Positions 14,394 through 35,138 of a DNA stretch of 64,000 bases are shown one piece after another (positions within the stretch are counted from its first letter, which is position 1; every line of letters starts with the position of its first letter). This stretch comes from Methanococcoides orientis. Its GTDB lineage: Archaea > Halobacteriota > Methanosarcinia > Methanosarcinales > Methanosarcinaceae. Both the position numbers and the translations under genes were made by a program. The notes beneath the pieces are model-generated. The model had not been told where the DNA came from. It did no database searches and was given only the letters and a program-made list of their open reading frames with translations. Where the stretch lies: the NCBI RefSeq assembly GCF_021184045.1, contig NZ_CP073710.1, positions 1,560,685 through 1,624,684 on the forward strand, read 5' to 3'.

Positions 14394-14576
14394 ATGAATG
14401 ATCTAGCACCATTTGAAACAGAATTTGTACGGACTGTGGAATATCTGCCTATAAAAAGTGATCTACTCATAGTCATTTGTGGATCTATGCTTTTGATAGG
14501 AATGGCTCTAGGTTATGGAATTTGTGTTGCCAGACTCAAAAGAGGGTTGCCTGTTTTTAAATTTGGAGTGGATTAA
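14394..14576 (+). CDS. Small single-helix membrane protein, 60 residues
   Basis: I chose the ATG at 14394, which follows GGAAGTGAAACC. The peptide starts MNDLAPFETEF and has one hydrophobic segment (LLIVICGSMLLIGMALGYG) and a basic C-terminal tail, which predicts a single-pass membrane protein. Its stop codon overlaps the ASCH gene start (TTAAATGA), separated by zero to one base. This suggests an operon with the ASCH protein. The function is unknown. Confidence 0.5.
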   Translation: MNDLAPFETEFVRTVEYLPIKSDLLIVICGSMLLIGMALGYGICVARLKRGLPVFKFGVD

Positions 14577-14975
14577 ATGAAAGTATTAGCAATTCGTCAA
14601 CCTTGGGCATCCCTAATTGCAGAAGGATATAAAACGATTGAAGTTCGCACTCAAAATACTAGAATTCGAGAAGAGATTCTGATTTATGCTAGTCGGACCA
14701 ATCCAAAGGAATGTGATTTAGAAACTGCAAAGAAGTACATCTCTTGTGTTTCTTTACCAAAAGGAGTACTTTTAGCAACCGCCAGATTAGCTGATTCAAT
14801 TATCCTAAAAGACGAAGATTTTCAGAACTATTTTGAAAAACACAAACTTTCAAATCAAACTAACAAGTTTGGCCATTATGGATGGATCCTTGAAGATGTA
14901 AAGAAAATAGAACCACTCCCTTTTAAAATGCCTCGAGGAGCAGTTATTTGGTCGAAAATCGAGACGGGGAATTGA
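14577..14975 (+). CDS. Stand-alone ASCH-domain protein
   Basis: The 132-residue protein is a complete ASCH domain. The RQPWASLIAEGYKTIEVR signature opens the chain, followed by the strand GVLLATARLADS and the final FGHYGWILEDVKKIEP...PRGAVIW. ASCH is a PUA-like fold that binds RNA or modified nucleosides; one well-known member, YqfB, hydrolyses N4-acetylcytidine. Here the gene converges on the 565-residue ASCH-GNAT-endonuclease gene with only three bases between stop codons. An antidote, reader or nucleoside-processing role in that locus is inference. Confidence 0.85.
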   Translation: MKVLAIRQPWASLIAEGYKTIEVRTQNTRIREEILIYASRTNPKECDLETAKKYISCVSLPKGVLLATARLADSIILKDEDFQNYFEKHKLSNQTNKFGHYGWILEDVKKIEPLPFKMPRGAVIWSKIETGN

Positions 14976-14978
14976 TAA

Positions 14979-16676
14979 TTATATCAATTTATCTAAAGTC
15001 TCTTTATCAATATAAGCACCACTCAATAGTTTTGCAGGGATTCTTTGAATAATGTCTTTATGCCCAATAGGTTTTATTTCCGTGAAGCTTTTGATTTCAA
15101 TTGCCAAAATTTCCCTCTTTGAATTTGCAAATCTAAAGAAGTCTTTTTCATCGAATACACTTCTTTTTCCATAAGATTCCCATTGAATTTCTGGCTTATC
15201 AATTGAAGTCGATTTTATGATACCATAGGCTGAAATCTCTTTTCTGGGACTTTCCACATAGAAAACAATGGAATCCCCTTGTTTGAGAGATTTTCCAAAT
15301 GGCGCACCTTTAAAGTATACAAAATTTTTCAATCCTTGAAGAACAATCTTTTGGTAAAATTCAGGTTTAATTGGAAGCAAAATGCCTCTGATATCTTTTT
15401 TAGTTACTTCTGGAGGTTTATGTCCGGATATCTCCGTAATACCTTTTTCATCAATTAGTATTACACCTTTACTTTTTGCAAAATCGGTTGCTCGGGATTT
15501 GAATTTTCTACCAATAAAAATTGGAACATGATAGCCACCATCTATTGTTTTTTGATAAAGCATCGAAACTGGATCTTGATCAACTAGAGTATCCTTTACT
15601 TCAATCAGACCTTTGATTTCGAATTTTGAATTTATTTTCTTTTTTATGCTGAAGTCAAGTGCTCTTTTGTCAATAATCGGGTGATTTTCTTCAATTTCAA
15701 ATCCAAAGTGATTTTCAATTAACCATTCCGTTATTGCTTCCCAGTCATAAGGATCACCTACATATTGAGGCTTTAATGTTTTTGAAAAAAGATAGGATTC
15801 GTTTCCATTACCATATAAATCCTCTTTGCCATATATTTTGTAACCGCTCGAAATTAAAAAATGAACAATATCATTATCTTGACAAAATGTATCTACTACT
15901 ATCTTTTTAAAATTCATTTTTAAGCATTGTTTTTCAGCAATCTCATAAATTTGAGGACCACGTCCAGCTCCTTGAAAATCAGGGTCAACAAATAAACTTT
16001 TTAATTCTACATTCCCACTAACAGTTGGTTTTAATATGATTGTAGAAATTAGTTTCCCATATGCCCATTCTCCAAAAGCAATTCTGCTTCCTTCTTTGAT
16101 ACCATCCTTTGCTTTTTGGAGCCATGATTCAAAATTCGGATATTTTTTGCTCAGGTGAGGTAATAGTAATCGATCCAATTCATCAATTTCAGATTCTGAT
16201 AAAAGTCTAGATATTTGCTTATCACTCGATAAAGATGCTGTATGATAGTCACTAATTTTTGGACTGATTGAATCGTTCTGTATTTTAGATGTTTCTTCAT
16301 CGTTTAAATAACGATAATTTTGAGGAGCTACAAATTTTTCAAAGATTTCCTTTGGATCAATTTGATTTTCAAAAACCTCTAAATCTTTTATCTTAAAAGC
16401 ACATCCCATTTCTTTTTGTTTATAATATTCAAAAAAGTCTTTTTTTTCAATCGAACCAAATTCGTTAAATCTATCCCATAGGTTTGAAGGGGTGTCTTCA
16501 AATACTTTTTCTATTCGAAAACTCCCAACAATTTTCTTAACTGGGCTGCTTGAATAAATAAATATTTTATTAACATTCTTTTTAGGATTTATTTTTGATT
16601 TCCTAAACTCATATTTTTTTTCCCCCACAAGTATTTTATTTGCAAACTTCGGTTTAATTGATAGTAAAACGTTCAT
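14979..16676 (-). CDS. ASCH-GNAT-(Mrr-like endonuclease)-ASCH multidomain protein
   Basis: The 565-residue protein has four parts. Residues 1-130 are an ASCH domain (KPKFANKILVGEKKYEFRK). Residues ~155-300 are a GNAT acetyltransferase with the acetyl-CoA loop VDPDFQGAGRG at 231-240. Residues ~310-415 look like a PD-(D/E)XK/Mrr nuclease: Asp341, then LIEVKD with Glu359 and Lys361, then ATDFAKSKGVILIDEKGI. Residues ~430-565 are a second ASCH/EVE-like domain. The ATG lies inside the end of the PIN-GNAT-ASCH gene (23-bp overlap), so the two are probably translated together. Base composition is AT-richer than in the core genes. I infer a nucleic-acid conflict protein; no such system is known to me. 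Confidence 0.7.
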   Translation of the reverse strand: MNVLLSIKPKFANKILVGEKKYEFRKSKINPKKNVNKIFIYSSSPVKKIVGSFRIEKVFEDTPSNLWDRFNEFGSIEKKDFFEYYKQKEMGCAFKIKDLEVFENQIDPKEIFEKFVAPQNYRYLNDEETSKIQNDSISPKISDYHTASLSSDKQISRLLSESEIDELDRLLLPHLSKKYPNFESWLQKAKDGIKEGSRIAFGEWAYGKLISTIILKPTVSGNVELKSLFVDPDFQGAGRGPQIYEIAEKQCLKMNFKKIVVDTFCQDNDIVHFLISSGYKIYGKEDLYGNGNESYLFSKTLKPQYVGDPYDWEAITEWLIENHFGFEIEENHPIIDKRALDFSIKKKINSKFEIKGLIEVKDTLVDQDPVSMLYQKTIDGGYHVPIFIGRKFKSRATDFAKSKGVILIDEKGITEISGHKPPEVTKKDIRGILLPIKPEFYQKIVLQGLKNFVYFKGAPFGKSLKQGDSIVFYVESPRKEISAYGIIKSTSIDKPEIQWESYGKRSVFDEKDFFRFANSKREILAIEIKSFTEIKPIGHKDIIQRIPAKLLSGAYIDKETLDKLI

Positions 16677-18180
16677 TTATAGCACCCTTATTTTTTACCG
16701 TTAAATACTGTTCATGGGAAATACTCATGATTGTTTGTGGTGCTGCTCTTAGTACCTTTTCATTTATTAAATCATCTAAATCCAAAGGATTTGCTAAATG
16801 GCAATGCCAAGTGAATATAATCACAGTTAGCGGTTTATGTAACATTGTTCTTATATCTTCAATCAAGTACACAGTTCTCTTACCAACAATGCGAATAATT
16901 TCTTCTTCATCTGTTAACCGGGAATAAATTTCTTTAACAACTCCAATGGAAGTTATTTTTTGCTCATCCTGAGATCGATAAAACAATACTAAATCTCCCG
17001 GTGAAATCATCGTTATCCGAGAATGGGATAAATACGCTTTTTTTATAGTATTTCCTTCTACAATAAAGTCACCACAATACTCAAATAAAGTCGGTTGACG
17101 AGATTGAGTTATTTCACTTTTATAGTCTGTGAACAATTTTTTATGCCATACTGGTTGAATCGGCACAACAAATTTAGTCACATTTTCTCCATCATAGAAT
17201 GTTGGATATAATTTTTTAGAGATTTCAATTGGACTTAATAAACTTGCTTCATTTGAGGTTGAAACCAAGTTTTTCATAAAAATTATTTCACCCGTTTTGT
17301 TCATATAACCTTTATCTTCAAACCCATATTCCTTAATCAATTCAATTAAATAATCATAATCAACTTCTTTTTTGATGTAGGTTAGGTACATTTGATCAAT
17401 TTCATTTTCAATACAAAAATTAGTAGCCAGTTTGAGGAATAGTTCTCCAATTTTATTTCCAACATAAGATACTTTAAAAGTGCATAATTTTAATCGTCTT
17501 GCTTTTGAAAATATTGGAGTTGAATCTAGAGGTTCATCTTCATCTTTATAAACTAACAATGCCCCTATTGAACCATCTGGTTTGTGATGAACAAAACATT
17601 TCCTTCCTTCTTCACATTTTTGTTTAAACCACTTATTGAACTCAGTTTCTCCATAATCATTTTTCAGAGAGTCGAAAAAAGAATCATTGATGTCTAAAGA
17701 GTGTAAGAAGTCATCTTTTAATGCTGGAAGATAACTGATTATCTTTTCCTTTTCATCAAATATATCAAGTGCTTCATCAATTGACAATATTTGATCTTTA
17801 ATTCCCAAAGCAATTGCTTTTCGATGAATGCCTTTGTCTTCTGTAACCAAAAAGGAAACTGCATTGCGATAAACCGAATAAAGAATAGCATTGTCTATTT
17901 CATCATTAATCTTCGATGAAGGTCCAACAATATTCAAAAATGTAGAGTCTTTTTTGTAATTTGGAGGAGATTCGAGTTTTAGGTATGTTCCAAGTTTTGA
18001 AATTGAAACATCACGTCGAGACTCATCCTTATCCCTTTTTAAGTCAACGGCCGATTCCGGATGAACCAGTATTTTTGCATCCTTTTTTTTCAAAGCTACA
18101 ATTAATTGTTGTAAATTGTCAGAGACAACAGCATAATCTTCTCTATAAACGACTATATTTGTATCAATTAATATCCGCAT
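16654..18180 (-). CDS. PIN nuclease-GNAT-ASCH fusion protein
   Basis: The 508-residue protein opens with a PIN domain (~1-145). Its acidic residues are in place: Asp6 in LIDTNIV, Glu42 in HPESAVDL, Asp93/Asp96 in INDEIDNAIL and Asp115 in VTEDKG. PIN domains are metal-dependent RNases, common as toxins. A GNAT-like region (~155-305) follows with a degenerate acetyl-CoA loop (YVGNKIGELFLK) and then a C-terminal ASCH/EVE-like domain (~335-500, FVVPIQPVWHKKLF ... ISPGDLVLFYRS). It is the first gene of a two-gene minus-strand operon and overlaps the next by 23 bp. Target RNA and regulation are unknown. Confidence 0.75.
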   Translation of the reverse strand: MRILIDTNIVVYREDYAVVSDNLQQLIVALKKKDAKILVHPESAVDLKRDKDESRRDVSISKLGTYLKLESPPNYKKDSTFLNIVGPSSKINDEIDNAILYSVYRNAVSFLVTEDKGIHRKAIALGIKDQILSIDEALDIFDEKEKIISYLPALKDDFLHSLDINDSFFDSLKNDYGETEFNKWFKQKCEEGRKCFVHHKPDGSIGALLVYKDEDEPLDSTPIFSKARRLKLCTFKVSYVGNKIGELFLKLATNFCIENEIDQMYLTYIKKEVDYDYLIELIKEYGFEDKGYMNKTGEIIFMKNLVSTSNEASLLSPIEISKKLYPTFYDGENVTKFVVPIQPVWHKKLFTDYKSEITQSRQPTLFEYCGDFIVEGNTIKKAYLSHSRITMISPGDLVLFYRSQDEQKITSIGVVKEIYSRLTDEEEIIRIVGKRTVYLIEDIRTMLHKPLTVIIFTWHCHLANPLDLDDLINEKVLRAAPQTIMSISHEQYLTVKNKGAINERFTIN

Positions 18181-18699
18181 AAAACCACATTCTATAAAAT
18201 AAAACTATACAAATAAACTCTTTTAGTGATATATATTTATTCTTGATGCTCTAAAAGATTTGGAGATTACTTTTAGCTTGAATAACCCCATTTATTCCAG
18301 TCCAGCACACAGAAATAGAATAGCTCAGTGGTACTATCAATCAAAATAACGGTTAGTTCTACTGTTATCGATTTGTAAAAAATATCAAATTTTTCGGCGC
18401 TCGCCTTCGGCAATGTTTGCGGCACGTAGTGTCGCCGGTGGCTTTTTTACCCGTCTCCTTAGGTACACTCTTAAGGACTACGTTCCACTATTGAGACATT
18501 CATTTTTAAATTGCTCAAAATTACCTTTCAAAATCTCCATGTGAAATTGAGATTGAACTTTATTTCGAACACTTAGCTAAATGCAGTCAAATTAAAGCGC
18601 CTTGACACCAACTGATAGATCCACCAAGGATATCACCCACATTTGAAATCACTTTATATGCAATAATGCATTTTATAGCCCATCGGAGGACGAAAAATA
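18181..18699. other. 519-bp divergent intergenic region
   Basis: The left part carries the minus-strand promoter of the PIN gene: an ATATATATCAC TATA-like box around 18226-18236 and a weak GTGGTTTT site. The centre (about 18385-18450) is a GC-rich island with a hairpin and T-run, listed separately. The right part (about 18640-18699) holds the promoter of the next plus-strand gene, with TTTATATG near 18650 and a GGAGGA ribosome site at 18685-18690. No convincing coding frame is present. Confidence 0.5.
18390..18448 (+). ncRNA. Possible structured RNA: GC-rich island with hairpin and T-run
   Basis: In an AT-rich spacer this segment is unusually GC-rich. It contains the inverted repeat GCGGCAC-GTA-GTGTCGC (18419-18435; seven pairs including one G-T), a short GCC/GGC hairpin at 18436-18442-region and then TTTTTT at 18442-18447. 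A GC-rich stem followed by a T-run suggests a terminated small RNA or an intrinsic terminator. No promoter is clear, and homology to a known RNA class is not recognised. Confidence 0.3.
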
Positions 18700-19057: not shown

Positions 19058-19113
19058 ATTCATTATCAATTTAGCTATGATCTTATCAAACAATCGATTG
19101 ATCAAAGATTTAA

Positions 19114-19773
19114 TTATGATTTATACTTTTTACTCACAATTTTATATTGGAGTTTACGATAAATATCTAGTATAGCTTCTAATTCTTGTGTTGTTCTATT
19201 TTCAATTGAATTAAAGTCCCTATTATCATACATTTCCCAAACATTTTTGCTTGAATCTTTTTCGCCTTGAATGTTCATCCTGTTCATAATTTCTTTAGCT
19301 GTTTTGGGGTAAATGTATTTTTCTTCAGGGAAAAGGAATGAGGTAACATTTGATAATTCAATATGTTTGCATTTGAAATACATGTCGTAAAGTTGATCAG
19401 GCTTGTCTATATTATAGCGAGAACTTCGGCAATATAAAGCTTGTAAATCAAACCAAGAAACCCCTATTCCACAAACTAGTAATTCTGAGGCTGGTTTTCC
19501 TAATATCCATTTTTTATCATTTTGTGATTTTTTCCACTCATTTTTAAAAAGAGTGTAAATATCTTCTAAAAGTTTCATTTCGTTGTTGTCATAGTTCCAT
19601 AACCAAAGTTGTTTGAAATTTGGCTTCTTTGAAATCTTTGAATCGTATGTTTTTGAAAAAAAAGTACCTCCAAGTAATTTATGTTTCTTTTTATTGGGAT
19701 TCACAATCAAAGACCTTCCTTCCCGTATTCTTTCTTCTTTTGGAACATAAAATTCAAGGTCAAAATATAACAT
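19114..19773 (-). CDS. Predicted DEDD-type 3'-5' exonuclease-like protein
   Basis: The 219-residue protein opens with MLYFDLEFYVP, where Asp5 and Glu7 match the DxE Exo I motif of DnaQ-like (RNase H-fold) exonucleases. A later segment, CGIGVSWFDLQAL, fits Exo II. The C-terminal RTTQELEAILDIYRKLQ resembles the last motif of RNase_H_2/Cas4-independent archaeal DEDD proteins. GAGGTG precedes the ATG by five bases. This is motif reading, not a family match, so the substrate is unknown. It lies in the AT-rich accessory region with other RNA-acting genes. Confidence 0.5.
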   Translation of the reverse strand: MLYFDLEFYVPKEERIREGRSLIVNPNKKKHKLLGGTFFSKTYDSKISKKPNFKQLWLWNYDNNEMKLLEDIYTLFKNEWKKSQNDKKWILGKPASELLVCGIGVSWFDLQALYCRSSRYNIDKPDQLYDMYFKCKHIELSNVTSFLFPEEKYIYPKTAKEIMNRMNIQGEKDSSKNVWEMYDNRDFNSIENRTTQELEAILDIYRKLQYKIVSKKYKS

Positions 19774-19906
19774 AGGACACCTCTACGATAAATAACATTA
19801 AATTTATATTTTAATTCTAAGTTGACATTATATAAAAAAATGTCGTCGTGATAAAATTTTCTCACTCAATTTAGACAGATTATGTCTCCTTTTTAAAATA
19901 TACTCA

Positions 19907-20374
19907 TTAAATATGCATAACAATCCTCTTCACATTTCTTGATTCAAAATTCAACTCCATTTCCTTTGCTTTTTTCTTCAAATAAGCTAAAGCACTCCTA
20001 TGCTTGATTCCAATCTCTCTTGCTTTTTCAAGAGTCAAATCAAGAATAAAATCATAAACTAATCTTTCATCAACAAATACCTGAGCCTGCTTCACATCTA
20101 ATTCCTGTTCATCAATGCTGTTTGCTTCCTTGCCAATGTAAACGACACTATCAGCATGAACATGTTTCCTTTCAAGAACCCCAGTACCTCCATCGAATTT
20201 ATGTTCTGGGTGTTCCACATACTGTCCAATTGTCCTCCTCAATGGTTTGAAATAATGAAATCCTTCCTTTATCCTCCCAGTTTCATAATCAATAAATGGT
20301 TCATAAACAGCCTTTTGAGGATCACTTGAAAAAGGTATGAGAGGCTTGAGGCTATCAGATGGATGATAAAGCAC
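19907..20374 (-). CDS. Hypothetical protein, possibly 5'-truncated
   Basis: The GTG at 20374 gives 155 residues (ending NFESRNVKRIVMHI). Its upstream AGTGATC is a fair ribosome site. However the same frame stays open for about 35 codons further upstream and reads like protein (GTFRSEHCCQQLTVPV) with no ATG, GTG or TTG before a TAA. That suggests a gene that has lost its start, or a non-standard start codon. The body has charged, mixed alpha/beta sequence (EHPEHKFDGGTGVLERKH). I do not recognise the family. Confidence 0.45.
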   Translation of the reverse strand: MLYHPSDSLKPLIPFSSDPQKAVYEPFIDYETGRIKEGFHYFKPLRRTIGQYVEHPEHKFDGGTGVLERKHVHADSVVYIGKEANSIDEQELDVKQAQVFVDERLVYDFILDLTLEKAREIGIKHRSALAYLKKKAKEMELNFESRNVKRIVMHI

Positions 20375-20560
20375 AATGTACAGATCACTATGTTGGACTG
20401 GAACGGTAAGTTGCTGACAACAATGCTCGCTTCTGAAAGTACCAATCTTAAGACAAAGTTATTACTAATAACATAGCAAAATTGCCCAAACACTAAAAAA
20501 ATCAATTATCAAAAAAGAAATAGACCCCCATTACAGAGGGTTTATCAATTAGTTCAGACT

Positions 20561-21346
20561 TTAGAAAGTTAGCCAATCTAAATTTGAAAAAGCTCGAGAT
20601 GCAGCATCTTTCTCAGCGCCCTTTATCTTTTTTCCAGATCCAGTGAAAATATATTTATCGCCAATACACACCTCACATATGTACGTTTTGTCATGAGCAG
20701 GACCTTCCTCCTGAACAAGTTCATAGTCTAACGAAAGTTCATTATCTTCACAGTACTTCTGCAACTTTCCCTTAGGATCTAAATACTCTATTTTATTCAA
20801 CAGGTCATCAAGATCATCATCAAGACCATTAAGACCAAAAAGATCGAGTACAAAGCTTTGTGCTGCATCAAGCCCCTTATCCTCAACTATAGCACCAATG
20901 ATAGCTTCGACAACATCTCCATATTTGCTACTAAGATCATTCCGACTATTTCCATGAATAATGAATTGATCCAAATATAATTGGTTTTCAAGTGTTTTCA
21001 AATTGTCATTCTTGACTAAGAGAGTTTTAAAATCAGTCAAAACACTCTCAATCGACTTACCAGTTTTAATTGCATGGTCATCGAATTTTGTATGCTGACA
21101 AGAATACCATGCAATTACTGCACCTAAGATTGAATCACCTAAATATTCCAATTTTTCATAATTTTCATATTTCAGACCACCATTATTTTGCATGTACAAA
21201 GCAGGAGTTATACGAACATCATCATACAATGAAGAATGTGTAAGAGCTGATATCAATAGCCTTTCATCATTGAAGTGAACTCCGAGAATGGTCTGATATT
21301 CTTCCAAAAGCGATTCAGGTACTGTGAAGTCATCATTTAGTTTCAT
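20561..21346 (-). CDS. rnc: Ribonuclease III (bacterial type)
   Basis: The 261-residue protein contains a RNase III catalytic domain (~15-180) with the signature YEKLEYLGDSILGAVI, the second acidic motif GDVVEAIIGAIVED, and a C-terminal double-stranded RNA-binding domain (~190-258, DPKGKLQKYCED ... GAEKDAASRAFSNL). All four catalytic acids appear present. RNase III cuts double-stranded RNA during rRNA and mRNA processing. It is uncommon in archaea, which suggests lateral transfer. Start ATG follows GAGGAAATAAT. It is a single-gene unit in the accessory region. Confidence 0.9.
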   Translation of the reverse strand: MKLNDDFTVPESLLEEYQTILGVHFNDERLLISALTHSSLYDDVRITPALYMQNNGGLKYENYEKLEYLGDSILGAVIAWYSCQHTKFDDHAIKTGKSIESVLTDFKTLLVKNDNLKTLENQLYLDQFIIHGNSRNDLSSKYGDVVEAIIGAIVEDKGLDAAQSFVLDLFGLNGLDDDLDDLLNKIEYLDPKGKLQKYCEDNELSLDYELVQEEGPAHDKTYICEVCIGDKYIFTGSGKKIKGAEKDAASRAFSNLDWLTF

Positions 21347-21615
21347 ATTATTTCCTCTTATATCTAAAAAATTCTTTATTCATAGATATAAAAGGACATA
21401 TGTCTGCAAAAATAAGTTATTAAAACATCTTAAGATAGAATATTGCAATTACCCCATTTTAAGATGACCTAATAGCTTACATTTAAAGCCATAGATCCTT
21501 CTAACAAAAAGAGATACTAAAAAATAATACCAATGATAGATTAAATCTGAAGTAATGTGATGTTATCATTGAATATCTCTTTCGGCAGTTTAATGTTAGA
21601 GGACATAATATAAAA

Positions 21616-21771
21616 ATGAATGCATATCTAATAGAGCTTGAAAGAGTAATCAAGCATATTATATTGGGAGATTCGACTCAAGACACAGTTGAATCTACAG
21701 AAGACATCATTAAAACCGTGAAAAGGTTTTCATCCAGCAAAGTAAATCTACAAATTAATCTAAATTGTTAA
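21616..21771 (+). CDS. Possible small protein, 51 residues
   Basis: The ATG frame encodes a hydrophilic peptide, MNAYLIELERVIKHIILGD, ending KVNLQINLNC. The only ribosome-site candidate, AGAGGA at about 21595-21600, is rather far upstream. Codon pattern and even charge distribution favour coding, but it is short and unrecognised. It lies alone in an AT-rich spacer downstream of the divergent rnc promoter. Confidence 0.35.
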   Translation: MNAYLIELERVIKHIILGDSTQDTVESTEDIIKTVKRFSSSKVNLQINLNC

Positions 21772-21803
21772 TTTCCATTTTTGAATTGCTATTTACTGCA
21801 TCA

Positions 21804-22013
21804 TTAATTCTCTATAATACACTCAGCATGATCATTCAAGGTAAATGATTTGTTAATCATTATTGTGACATAATTCAACATATTCAAATCAAATTGGATA
21901 TATATTGCTCCAGTAGCCGACAGATCAATTTTGTTAAAGGCTGAGGTTTGAATCATATCCCTCGTATCATTTTTCGGGGAGATATACAACGTACAAAAAG
22001 TGTACGCCATCAA
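21804..22013 (-). CDS. Doubtful small hypothetical protein, 69 residues
   Basis: An ATG frame encoding MAYTFCTLYISPKNDTRDMI and ending DHAECIIEN. No ribosome site is visible before the two successive ATG codons, and I recognise no family. The composition is protein-like (beta-rich, no low-complexity bias), and no better frame occupies this stretch. I list it as a weak candidate only. Confidence 0.3.
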   Translation of the reverse strand: MMAYTFCTLYISPKNDTRDMIQTSAFNKIDLSATGAIYIQFDLNMLNYVTIMINKSFTLNDHAECIIEN

Positions 22014-22504: not shown

Positions 22505-23452
22505 TTAGCATCCCCATATCTCGGATGCTGTCTTGAAGTGCATTTTTGCAACTTCGTGTAACCTATCCCTGCCATACTTTTCAATGAACTTTGCACCAAC
22601 CTTCTTAACCTTATCCGATGCACCCTTTGGGAATGTTCCAATATACTTCTCGTTCATTTCCTGTATAGTCTCAAGGAAAGCTGCACGTGCAAGGATCGAT
22701 GCTGCAGCCACTGCAATTGACTGGGTTTCTGCTCTGGGTATCTGAACAGGCTTCACATCGATGTTCCATTGGCAAAGTTCATCCTCTACCATGCTGTCGT
22801 GGTATGCAAATTTGTCAATTATGATGCTATCGCCCTGCTGGTACAGGTCTCTGATCGCACTCACATGGTTTACGGTAAGCATAATGTTCAGGTTCTGAAG
22901 TTTTTCATAATATTTATTGTATGCAACTGGTTCAAGGATCTTCACGGAGAACATATCACCTGAAATTGAGCTTTTTATCTGCTTTGCAATAGAAATGTTC
23001 TGATAATCGGTCAACTGTTTGCAATCCCTAACACCGATCCCCTCAAGAATTGATTCAATTTCCGGAGTGGTCTTTACTGCAGCTACCACAAGAGGACCAA
23101 AGAAATCACCCTTACCTGATTCATCAGAGCCAATTACACCGTGTCCATTTGTAACAGGCAAGTCTATAGATGATGTTAACTTTTCTTCGGGAATTGAAAT
23201 GTTCTTATTATTAGGTGAAGGTACTACACCTTCTATTAGTGCAATACGTATTTCTTCTGCTTCAGGTGATGTGCCTAACTGGGATAGATCAACTTTAATT
23301 CCCTTCTTTCCATCGTATATTCTTATTACGCGGGAAAACTGTTTCTTTGATACGCTGAACTGAATACCGAAATTGATTTCCTTTGGCGTGTCCACTTCAA
23401 ACCCTGGAATCAGGATAGATCTTATCTCATTGTACTTGTCAGTTATTTTCAT
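22505..23452 (-). CDS. rnhC: Ribonuclease HIII
   Basis: I start at the ATG at 23452 (315 residues, MKITDKYNEIRS) because AAGGGG lies 6 bases upstream; the longer frame adds a hydrophobic leader with no ribosome site. An N-terminal substrate-binding domain (DUF3378-like, ~1-95) precedes the RNase H core with the HIII signature GSDESGKGDFFGPLVVAA, then IDKFAYHD and AVAAASILARAAFL. The enzyme removes RNA from RNA-DNA hybrids. Archaea usually use RNase HII, so an HIII enzyme is less common and probably acquired. It may be the organism's accessory RNase H. Confidence 0.9.
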   Translation of the reverse strand: MKITDKYNEIRSILIPGFEVDTPKEINFGIQFSVSKKQFSRVIRIYDGKKGIKVDLSQLGTSPEAEEIRIALIEGVVPSPNNKNISIPEEKLTSSIDLPVTNGHGVIGSDESGKGDFFGPLVVAAVKTTPEIESILEGIGVRDCKQLTDYQNISIAKQIKSSISGDMFSVKILEPVAYNKYYEKLQNLNIMLTVNHVSAIRDLYQQGDSIIIDKFAYHDSMVEDELCQWNIDVKPVQIPRAETQSIAVAAASILARAAFLETIQEMNEKYIGTFPKGASDKVKKVGAKFIEKYGRDRLHEVAKMHFKTASEIWGC

Positions 23453-23691
23453 CTGATTCCCCTTATTACCCTTATCATTATTTCGGTTCTGTAGAAAATC
23501 TATCAAAATCACCATCAACAGGTGAATATAGGAAATAAGCATCAATATCTGCCATACATTTTGAATTATTGTTAACTTAAATTCTCATCCAAATTTTGAG
23601 GAATTCTACAAAACCAAAATTAGACCCGATTTTAATTAACTACATTATGGTAAAAATAGAAACCAATGACTGGTTAGTCTTGTAATAATAA

Positions 23692-32429: not shown

Positions 32430-35138
32430 TTAATCAATGTACAATTCTCCTTCATTATACATCTCCAACCAATTCTTGAGTTGGTTTCCAGAAATTTGAC
32501 TACTGGTGTTATGATCCCATGCACCCCCTACTACAGAATTATTCGTATCTAGTGGATAAAGAACCATCCATTCATCTGCTTCTTCGATGAAATATACTGG
32601 CGTACCGTTGTCGTCATAAGGATAATATGGCACGCCAATCAGGACATTCAATTTAGCTGTCACCAAGTGTCGGAACATGGTATAAGTGTGCGGCTCATTT
32701 TTATCCCCATTACCACTCATATTAACAATTGCAGCAGATTTACTGTAAGTTACATCACCTACAGTTACTTCTTCAATTGACCAATTATCCCAATTCGTTT
32801 CCTTTTTCCAATAACCCAGACCTTCAACCATAACATCATATTCTGAATGATCGATACCGAAGTAATAGCTTAGGTCCTCATCCATCGCTATGAACTCTCC
32901 GTAAGATGCAGTTACATTTCCAATATTGCAATACTGGCCTAAGATAACCTCTCCGCTGGCATTATAAACCCAAACTTCACCTGGTTCGAATATGCCATTG
33001 TCATCCACATTAATCGGATATTCACTAACAGACGTTCTGTTGTCTAAAACTTCCTGAATAGTAAGATTCACATTTCCTGTGTTTGTCACATTATAGGTCC
33101 ATTCAACCGGATAACCAAACAATAGATATGGACCTATTGGTTCATCAACGTCATGACCATCAGTGAACTTCTCGATATCAATTGATGCATTCACACCGAA
33201 GTAGTAACTGATATCGGTGGCATTAACCTCCACATCAGCATAGGTTGTGGAAGCGTTCACATTGTTCTGGTAAGCACCTGCCACAGAAATACCGGTAAGG
33301 CTGAGACTGTCGTTATACTCCCCAACACCAAGGAAAGCAATGGTTCCAACAGGACCCTCAACAGAATCATTGACTAAGATATTAGTGAGTGCAACATCAC
33401 CAGTGTTACTGACATTGTAAGACCAGATGACAGGATCTCCAACAGGGATCTCAAGATCATGAGGAGAAGAAACATCCGCACCATTGGTAAGTTTAACAAT
33501 ACTAAGACCAGCAGAAGACTCTAAAGGTTCAGAAACACCGAAGTAGTAACTGATATCGGTGGCATTAACCTCCACATCAGCATAGGTTGTGGAAGCGGTC
33601 ACATTGTTCTGGTAAGCACCTGCCACAGAAGTACCGGTAAGGCTGAGACTGTCGTTATACTCCCCAACATCAAGGAAAGCAATGGTTCCAACAGGACCTT
33701 CAACAGAATCATTGACTAAGATATTAGTGAGTGAAACATCACCAGTATTACTCACATTGTAAGACCAGGTTACAGGATCTCCAACAGGAATCTCAAGATC
33801 ATGAGGAGAAGAAACATCCGCACCATTGGTAAGTTTAACAATGCTAAGACCAGCAGAAGACCCTAAAGGTTCAGAAACACCGAAGTAGTAACTGATATCG
33901 GTGGCATTAACCTCCACATCAGCATAGGTTGTGGAAGCGGTCACATTGTTCTGGTAAGCACCTGCCACAGAAGTACCGGTAAGGCTGAGACTGTCGTTAT
34001 ACTCCCCAACATCAAGGAAAGCAATGGTTCCAACAGGACCTTCAACAGAATCATTGACTAAGATATTAGTGAGTGAAACATCACCAGTGTTACTGACATT
34101 GTAAGACCAGGTTACAGGATCTCCAACAGGAATCTCAAGATCATGAGGAGAAGAAACATCCGCACCATTGGTAAGTTTAACAATGCTAAGACCAGCAGAA
34201 GACCCTAAAGGTTCAGAAACACCGAAGTAGTAACTGATATCGGTGGCATTAACCTCCACATCAGCAAAGGTTGTGGAAGCGGTCACATTGTTCTGGTAAG
34301 CACCTGCCACAGAAGTACCGGTAAGGCTGAGACTGTCGTTATACTCCCCAACATCAAGGAAAGCAATGGTTCCAACAGGACCTTCAACAGAATCATTGAC
34401 TAAGATATTAGTGAGTGAAACATCACCAGTGTTACTGACATTGTAAGACCAGATGACAGGATCTCCAACAGGAATCTCAAGATCATGAGGAGAAGAAACA
34501 TCCGCACCATTGGTAAGTTTAACAATACTAAGACCAGCAGAAGACTCTAAAGGTTCAGAAACACCGAAGTAGTAACTGATATCGGTGGCATTAACCTCCA
34601 CATCAGCAAAGGTTGTGGAAGCGTTCACATTGTTCTGGTAAGCACCTGCCACAGAAGTACCGGTAAGGCTGAGACTGTCGTTATACTCCCCAACACCAAG
34701 GAAAGCAATGATTCCAACAGGACCTTCAACAGAATCATTGACTAAGATATTAGTGAGTGAAACATCACCAGTGTTACTGACATTGTAAGACCAGGTTACA
34801 GGATCTCCAACAGGAATCTCAAGGTCATGAGGAGAAGAAACATCCGCACCATTGGTAAGTTTAACAATACTAAGGCTAGCCGATTCAGTCAATATGGGAT
34901 TGTTTTTAGGACCAGTACCCACAGTGGAGCCACCACTACCGCCACTGGACCTTTTCATACTAATTCCCCCATCCTTAGAGACGACAAAAGCACCCTCCCA
35001 TTCAGAGTATTTACTCTCATGTCGATCATCTGTTGGATCGGGAGCAAGCCCCGGTGAATTCGTTGAAATACTTGTGAGACCACTCATTAGCAAAGTGATC
35101 ATTAGTAGGATACCTAATGGTTTGATTATTGGATGCAT
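32430..35138 (-). CDS. Secreted surface protein with five tandem 114-residue repeats
   Basis: The 902-residue protein starts with a Sec signal peptide (GILLMITLLMSGLTSISTN). After a Ser/Gly linker (~62-80) it carries five nearly identical 114-residue DUF11/DUF7507-type repeats, each opening LSIVKLTNGADVSSPHDLEI and ending DISYYFGV. A sixth, diverged copy (WTYNVTNTGNVNLTIQEV) follows, then a unique C-terminal domain with Trp-rich sequence (GLGYWKKETNWDNWSIEE) of about 140 residues. Many N-x-S/T sites are present; no membrane anchor is seen. The repeats would form a rod of Ig-like domains at the cell surface. Function as adhesin or envelope protein is inferred. Confidence 0.75.
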   Translation of the reverse strand: MHPIIKPLGILLMITLLMSGLTSISTNSPGLAPDPTDDRHESKYSEWEGAFVVSKDGGISMKRSSGGSGGSTVGTGPKNNPILTESASLSIVKLTNGADVSSPHDLEIPVGDPVTWSYNVSNTGDVSLTNILVNDSVEGPVGIIAFLGVGEYNDSLSLTGTSVAGAYQNNVNASTTFADVEVNATDISYYFGVSEPLESSAGLSIVKLTNGADVSSPHDLEIPVGDPVIWSYNVSNTGDVSLTNILVNDSVEGPVGTIAFLDVGEYNDSLSLTGTSVAGAYQNNVTASTTFADVEVNATDISYYFGVSEPLGSSAGLSIVKLTNGADVSSPHDLEIPVGDPVTWSYNVSNTGDVSLTNILVNDSVEGPVGTIAFLDVGEYNDSLSLTGTSVAGAYQNNVTASTTYADVEVNATDISYYFGVSEPLGSSAGLSIVKLTNGADVSSPHDLEIPVGDPVTWSYNVSNTGDVSLTNILVNDSVEGPVGTIAFLDVGEYNDSLSLTGTSVAGAYQNNVTASTTYADVEVNATDISYYFGVSEPLESSAGLSIVKLTNGADVSSPHDLEIPVGDPVIWSYNVSNTGDVALTNILVNDSVEGPVGTIAFLGVGEYNDSLSLTGISVAGAYQNNVNASTTYADVEVNATDISYYFGVNASIDIEKFTDGHDVDEPIGPYLLFGYPVEWTYNVTNTGNVNLTIQEVLDNRTSVSEYPINVDDNGIFEPGEVWVYNASGEVILGQYCNIGNVTASYGEFIAMDEDLSYYFGIDHSEYDVMVEGLGYWKKETNWDNWSIEEVTVGDVTYSKSAAIVNMSGNGDKNEPHTYTMFRHLVTAKLNVLIGVPYYPYDDNGTPVYFIEEADEWMVLYPLDTNNSVVGGAWDHNTSSQISGNQLKNWLEMYNEGELYID
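33192..34874 (-). repeat. Tandem 342-bp coding repeats (5 units)
   Basis: The anchor AAGTAGTAACTGATATCGG recurs at 33199, 33541, 33883, 34225 and 34567, exactly 342 bp apart, inside the 902-residue surface gene. Units differ at only a few positions (for example GCGTTC/GCGGTC and CAAAGG/CATAGG). This points to recent unequal crossing-over or gene conversion. Copy number may vary between strains or be miscounted in short-read assemblies. Confidence 0.95.

Follow-up and report, generated by a model that had tools for sequence, protein, structure and literature searches.

An RNase III Gene in Methanococcoides

The window, by which we mean the whole stretch of 64,000 nucleotides of Methanococcoides orientis that was analyzed, contains a ribonuclease III (RNase III) gene at 20561–21346 on the minus strand. 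This open reading frame (ORF) begins with ATG, encodes 261 aa and carries the catalytic signature YEKLEYLGDSILGAVI. Its catalytic domain spans residues ~27–168 and its double-stranded RNA-binding domain (dsRBD) residues 191–256. Three Pfam families matched above their curated cut-offs: Ribonucleas_3_3 (E 3.9e-16), Ribonuclease_3 (E 9.7e-11, 102 of 102 profile positions), and, at the C terminus, dsrm (E 5.9e-14, 66 of 66 positions). When solved structures were searched with phmmer, the RNase III of Thermotoga maritima was matched over residues 12–255 (E 1.2e-13), and E64, E67, D71, D144, and E147, which we take to be the catalytic positions, aligned with acidic residues in the bacterial enzymes. 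For the AlphaFold2 model (mean pLDDT 85.7), the best Foldseek matches were bacterial RNase III, including the enzymes of Aquifex aeolicus (1rc7, E 1.6e-12) and Escherichia coli (7r97, E 9.5e-12); whole-chain TM scores against these two were only 0.46–0.59 because of the domain arrangement. Pfam, phmmer, and Foldseek thus agree with the earlier note, which had described a full-length RNase III with a complete catalytic signature and dsRBD. Judging from the predicted fold and the intact acidic signature, the gene most likely encodes a catalytically competent class-I RNase III.

Like the bacterial class-I enzymes of A. aeolicus, E. coli, and T. maritima, the protein has one catalytic domain, one C-terminal dsRBD, the conserved acidic motif, and, as predicted, the same fold. 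Unlike them, it has a catalytic-domain insertion (about residues 44–60 and 84–98), resides in an archaeal host, is patchy and mobile, and shares only ~25–27% identity with the solved enzymes. No other RNase III domain was found in the source genome (2.49 Mb, single contig). The only close relative found, L095, comes from a metagenome-assembled Methanococcoides genome of the same genus (G008) and is 90% identical, which fits the methanogen host named in the earlier note. Between the two genes, dN/dS was ~0.48 overall, 0.22 in the catalytic domain, and 0.84 in the C-terminal part, a weak estimate from 46 differences.

An Insertion with Casposon Fragments

Compared with G010, a genome without RNase III, the gene lies in an insertion of ~2.8 kb (19100–21921), whose flanks are 22 bp apart in G010. 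Compared with G004, the common flank resumes at 21711, and a different 862-bp filler is found there. Inside the insertion are a 219-aa ORF, two gene fragments, and the RNase III gene together with its leader. The 219-aa ORF (19114–19773, minus) is unassigned to any family, with no Pfam match up to E 1 and no PADLOC match. The first fragment (19907–20374, minus) is the C-terminal 155 aa of a ~890-aa family-B DNA polymerase (PolB) of Cas1-PolB elements, or casposons; we had considered it as a conserved partner gene and rejected this, as it is a polymerase remnant. Adjoining it in the opposite orientation is a fragment of casposon Cas1 (residues 59–97; 20345–20461, plus). The DNA common to the window and L095 (20548–21623, minus, 92.7% identity) covers the RNase III gene and its leader only, not the flanks.

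Casposons are described as carrying Cas1 and a family-B DNA polymerase (PMC9939771), and fragments of both adjoin the window gene at distances of 0.1–0.7 kb. Fragments of casposon Cas1 or PolB occurred in 8 of the 63 sequences examined, and intact Cas1-PolB elements exist in relatives (Cas1 E 2.3e-70). Unlike casposons, the window locus holds no intact element, and its RNase III gene is putative cargo; no element ends were identified there, and a comparison of the DNA beside the PolB stop codons revealed no common end in 14 copies. Elsewhere, three tandem Cas1-PolB elements ~9.5 kb apart end near an RNase III gene (L112–L113, G060:C1:936500-976200), and a C-terminal fragment of casposon Cas1 reaches slightly into another RNase III ORF, an arrangement suggestive of cargo (L041:7932-8988).

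Other features of the neighborhood were also recorded. A block at 14536–18361, absent from G010, contains two genes (14979–18180, minus) of the PADLOC candidate families PDC-M11B and PDC-M11A, with ASCH/GNAT/EVE and PIN/EVE-like regions. Beside the insertion, 22505–23545 (minus) encodes an N-terminally extended member of the RNase HII family that looks RNase HIII-like by eye; 5 of the 11 genus genomes have close copies, and all 11 have a distant relative of ~220 aa. Farther away, 32430–35138 (minus) encodes a 902-aa protein with several near-identical repeats of ~115 residues.

Taxonomic Distribution and Phylogeny of RNase III

The earlier note had implied that RNase III is rare in methanogens, and our counts do not bear this out. 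At E ≤ 0.001, a PF00636 domain match was present in 7 of the 11 genus genomes, in 50 of 111 family genomes (47 of them above the cut-off), in 94 of 237 class genomes, and in 144 of 392 genomes from a sample of the phylum. These numbers rule out an orphan or rare gene and correct the picture of RNase III as an oddity in methanogens. In published reviews, archaeal RNase III is described as sporadic (PMC7827160) and as acquired by some mesophilic Euryarchaeota (PMC4571572). In our tree of 113 proteins (one of 114 matches, scoring under 90 bits, was left out), the archaeal proteins fell into several separate, unrelated clades. Phylogenetic placement, which the earlier note had suggested, put the window gene in a clade of 31 rows with support of 100/95, on a long branch (1.02) common to L095 only.

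Within this clade, 17 copies occupy one fixed site in a single genus, g10 (16 flagged, and L072 added by inspection), so the gene looks resident there; the neighbors are cysteine-desulfurase-, IscU-, and gamma-carbonic-anhydrase-like genes, named by reading the sequences rather than from a database. Outside g10, RNase III of this clade is patchy. The same type I restriction-modification neighbor clusters accompany RNase III genes from two different clades at L059, L061, and L083. A viral origin of the gene was rejected: in viral contigs, none of 56 pattern matches was confirmed as a relative and the exact motif did not occur, and the phage and plasmid matches (10 and 58 records) were all under 60% identity.

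A Conserved Hairpin in the Leader

Upstream of the gene lies a long hairpin, here called R1, at about 21393–21500 (minus), with 43 predicted base pairs and a z-score of -4.97; the match to the model described below (21400–21491) ends 53 nt before the start codon. The 294 bases upstream of the window gene folded with z -4.23 and the leader of L095 with z -4.91, and in each case 0 of 200 shuffles were as stable. Among 250-base leaders of the 31 clade members, six (L062, L059, the window, L063, L069, and L095) had z-scores from -9.25 to -3.62, and the remaining 25 were at -2.02 or higher. Control leaders (n = 120) had a mean of -0.45 and a minimum of -3.61, with one at or below -3 and none at or below -4. 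Folding the hairpin alone gave a lower z-score in two further cases. That of L052, whose leader is unremarkable over 250 nt (z -1.45), reached z -3.09 (1 of 200 shuffles as stable), and that of L198 reached z -7.76, the leader value of -0.87 having come from a start chosen 81 nt too early.

The stems of the strongly folding clade leaders have a base motif in common. A covariance model was built from eight hairpins of six loci, aligned without regard to structure. Of its 31 consensus pairs, 13 had changes on both sides; 90.3% of cells were paired, against 38.9–47.7% in slid versions, and 25 cells showed double changes, against 8.6 ± 2.2 in shuffled and 2–8 in slid versions.

We then considered known RNA families and repeats. 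A search of Rfam up to E 1 with the window leader returned four matches, all to miRNA or snoRNA models and far below gathering scores, and in four relatives only a tRNA passed; one other weak leader match (L20) lay elsewhere in L182. The rncO leader of E. coli presumably has an Rfam entry. As the window leader gave no cis-regulatory match up to E 1, no relation to rncO was detected. The idea that the hairpin is a repeated DNA element was discarded, since a 261-base leader query matched only G000 and G008 at length; G008 gave an additional match of 75 bases, and three more genomes gave short ones.

The distribution of R1 was exclusive. Among 61 sources, seven matched the model, all previously known to have the hairpin. 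The model matched 10 distinct places in 8 of 111 family genomes and 11 places in 9 of 236 class genomes, and each of the 11 lies shortly before an RNase III gene of the clade to which the window gene belongs. Eight were the training hairpins and three lay outside the model (G016, whose leader fold had been seen previously but left out, and G019 and G127, which the searches found). The G127 match belongs to another family and precedes a full clade member. The G019 match precedes an RNase III gene (L197:4188-4625) with an internal deletion of ~100 catalytic-domain residues, which has kept its reading frame, dsRBD, and leader hairpin. These searches, which scored 17–37 candidates per genome under strict filters, may have overlooked weak copies. 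Between the end of the gene-proximal hairpin and the start codon there are 42–60 nt in 9 of 9 leaders; one or two copies are present depending on the genome, with two in tandem in G044 and G084. The hairpin is kept before genes whose proteins share only 34–41% identity with the window RNase III. R1 is thus almost certainly a real conserved element tied to the RNase III genes of one clade.

Most clade members lack R1: none was found in the 17 copies at the g10 site, in the g14 copies, or in L096/L097. The trait needs 3 changes on the tree, and an ancestral R1 with later losses is only the simplest reading; most resident copies lost it or never had it. Some hairpin-bearing relatives have Q at the position of E64 (L069 and L052) or N at that of D144 (L063, L062, and L198), and therefore not all of them are certainly active.

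RNA-Level Signals

A TATA-like site lies at 21537–21544 (minus), 53 nt upstream of the window hairpin, with 6 of 8 matches to the consensus TTTATATA. In seven leaders such a match preceded the hairpin, or the outer hairpin of a tandem pair, by 44–54 nt, and the mRNA would therefore start shortly before the hairpin. The summed score was 44 against a shuffle mean of 34 and maximum of 41, so that it was not reached at this place in 400 shuffles; at any place it was reached in 0.5% of shuffles. Opposite bases were also counted in nine non-redundant hairpins, including the second hairpins of two tandem pairs (L059b and L069b). G.U pairs outnumbered A.C pairs by 39 to 17 (one-sided p 0.002, the counts not being independent), as expected of a sense RNA rather than a DNA palindrome; L069a, with five A.C and no G.U, went against the trend.

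Between the hairpin and the gene, a second helix (21349–21400, minus; arms 21349–21366 and 21383–21400) holds the Shine-Dalgarno (SD) sequence in its 3' arm, and the predicted mean probability that the SD is unpaired was 0.03 in the window. The SD was predicted to be paired in most of the hairpin leaders, where this value was 0.01–0.43, compared with a mean of 0.46 in 147 control genes (seven non-redundant leaders, Mann-Whitney p 0.0006); L052, at 0.43, is the exception in which the SD is not occluded. The near-duplicates L095 and L197 were left out of all three non-redundant counts (G.U/A.C, TATA, and SD). A two-state switch, with an anti-SD strand freed by the cut, was not supported, as the SD is predicted to be paired whether or not the hairpin is present.

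A Different Hairpin in a Second Clade

An unrelated RNase III clade (L086, L088/L089, and L093) has a different long hairpin, R2, at the same place in the leader (L086:7712-7853, L088:1082-1223, and L093:2058-2186), with z-scores of -6.76 and -3.73. Only two distinct sequences of it exist. Covariation was unfavorable (term +3.1; double changes in 3 of 56 pairs), so the case for R2 comes from position and stability only. Its model matched five places in 111 genomes: four at RNase III leaders (the training loci and an identical copy), and a weak one in AT-rich DNA without RNase III (G026). Strong folds (z ≤ -3) were present in 9 of 94 other RNase III leaders, L197 included; L090, L100, L125, and L152 were among those viewed. 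In yet another clade, the leader of the L090 gene (7818–8210, plus; G025) folds with z -6.0, a fold not seen in its clade mates.

Probable Autoregulation and Alternative Explanations

The protein family, the hairpin with its covariation, clade-exclusive place and fixed spacing, the positioned TATA-like box, and the SD occlusion were all computed. This leader anatomy is as expected for an RNase III feedback loop, and therefore autoregulation by self-cleavage is favored. By analogy with the rnc leader of E. coli, R1 is probably targeted by RNase III at the start of the mRNA, and through it the gene would regulate itself negatively. The mRNA would begin with a long, nearly continuous double-stranded hairpin, followed by the helix that covers the ribosome-binding site. 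RNase III would bind and cut the hairpin in its own leader, and the cut would expose the message to decay, so that the enzyme level would fall when free enzyme is plentiful and rise when other double-stranded RNA occupies it. The earlier note had proposed that the enzyme may process structured RNAs; the conserved hairpin in its own leader now supplies a candidate substrate, and we infer its cleavage by the window RNase III, as well as transcription from the TATA-like box and the sign of the control.

One alternative, in our estimation unlikely, is that the hairpin acts in cis as RNA without serving as a target of RNase III. It would then stabilize the 5' end or, together with the SD helix, keep translation low or temperature-dependent, RNase III being harmful in excess. 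The significant SD occlusion and the closeness of the hairpin to the predicted mRNA start would suit such a role; however, it leaves unexplained why a double-stranded stem of such length, and nothing else across 236 genomes, accompanies RNase III genes, and why an analogous but different hairpin precedes the genes of a second RNase III clade. We consider it highly improbable that the hairpin acts as a DNA palindrome, either as the terminus of a mobile element or as a cruciform to which a regulator binds. The palindrome is readable on both strands, and the RNase III copies are patchy, with several abutting casposon fragments. However, it occurs only upstream, singly or in tandem pairs, at fixed spacing, and the far end of the gene has none. 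The excess of G.U over A.C and the retention of the hairpin before such divergent genes likewise argue against it.

The earlier note had also raised defence against double-stranded RNA. In such a scenario, RNase III would be an accessory anti-virus or anti-plasmid nuclease of casposons and defence islands, and the leader would only keep its level low in peacetime. The casposon fragments beside the gene and in other sequences and the nearby PDC-M11A/B genes are circumstantial evidence for this, and RNase III copies elsewhere have as neighbors a type I restriction-modification operon (L059, with the same neighbor clusters in L061 and L083), MoxR-VWA genes (L053, also L078), and an MkoA-like helicase (L087). 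Nevertheless, these last neighbors mostly belong to other RNase III clades, PADLOC has no model that matches the window protein itself (P0001), viral contigs yielded no relative, and no virus or mobile-element substrate is known, which makes this scenario very unlikely. Quite unlikely, too, is a version that includes the hairpins, in which a mobile archaeal RNase III with a private RNA sensor would form a self-contained immune nuclease inducible by double-stranded RNA, one that arose two or more times in methanogens with hairpins unrelated to each other. An idle enzyme would cut the leader hairpin; once the enzyme is titrated by viral or plasmid double-stranded RNA, the leader would survive, and synthesis would rise.

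Negative autoregulation, the reading that we favor, has bacterial counterparts. The RNase III of E. coli is reported to regulate itself by cutting a structure in its own 5' UTR (PMC5371410), and that of Staphylococcus aureus to be autoregulated by a cut in its own coding region (PMC3386247). Like rncO, the window leader is structured, belongs to the RNase III gene itself, and has a long, potentially cleavable stem; unlike rncO, it has the extra helix over the SD and candidate rather than established cleavage, and it shows no cis-regulatory Rfam match at the threshold given above. With S. aureus it would share the logic of self-cleavage, the site being in the coding region there and in the leader here. 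No RNase III feedback loop in archaea was found in the literature searched; if our reading is true, this would be the first one known within that literature, and 21393–21500 offers a short, exact target for testing. In Methanolobus psychrophilus, the enzyme of 5'-UTR processing has been reported as unidentified (PMC10667835), and we suggest that archaeal RNase III may be a candidate enzyme class for this processing.
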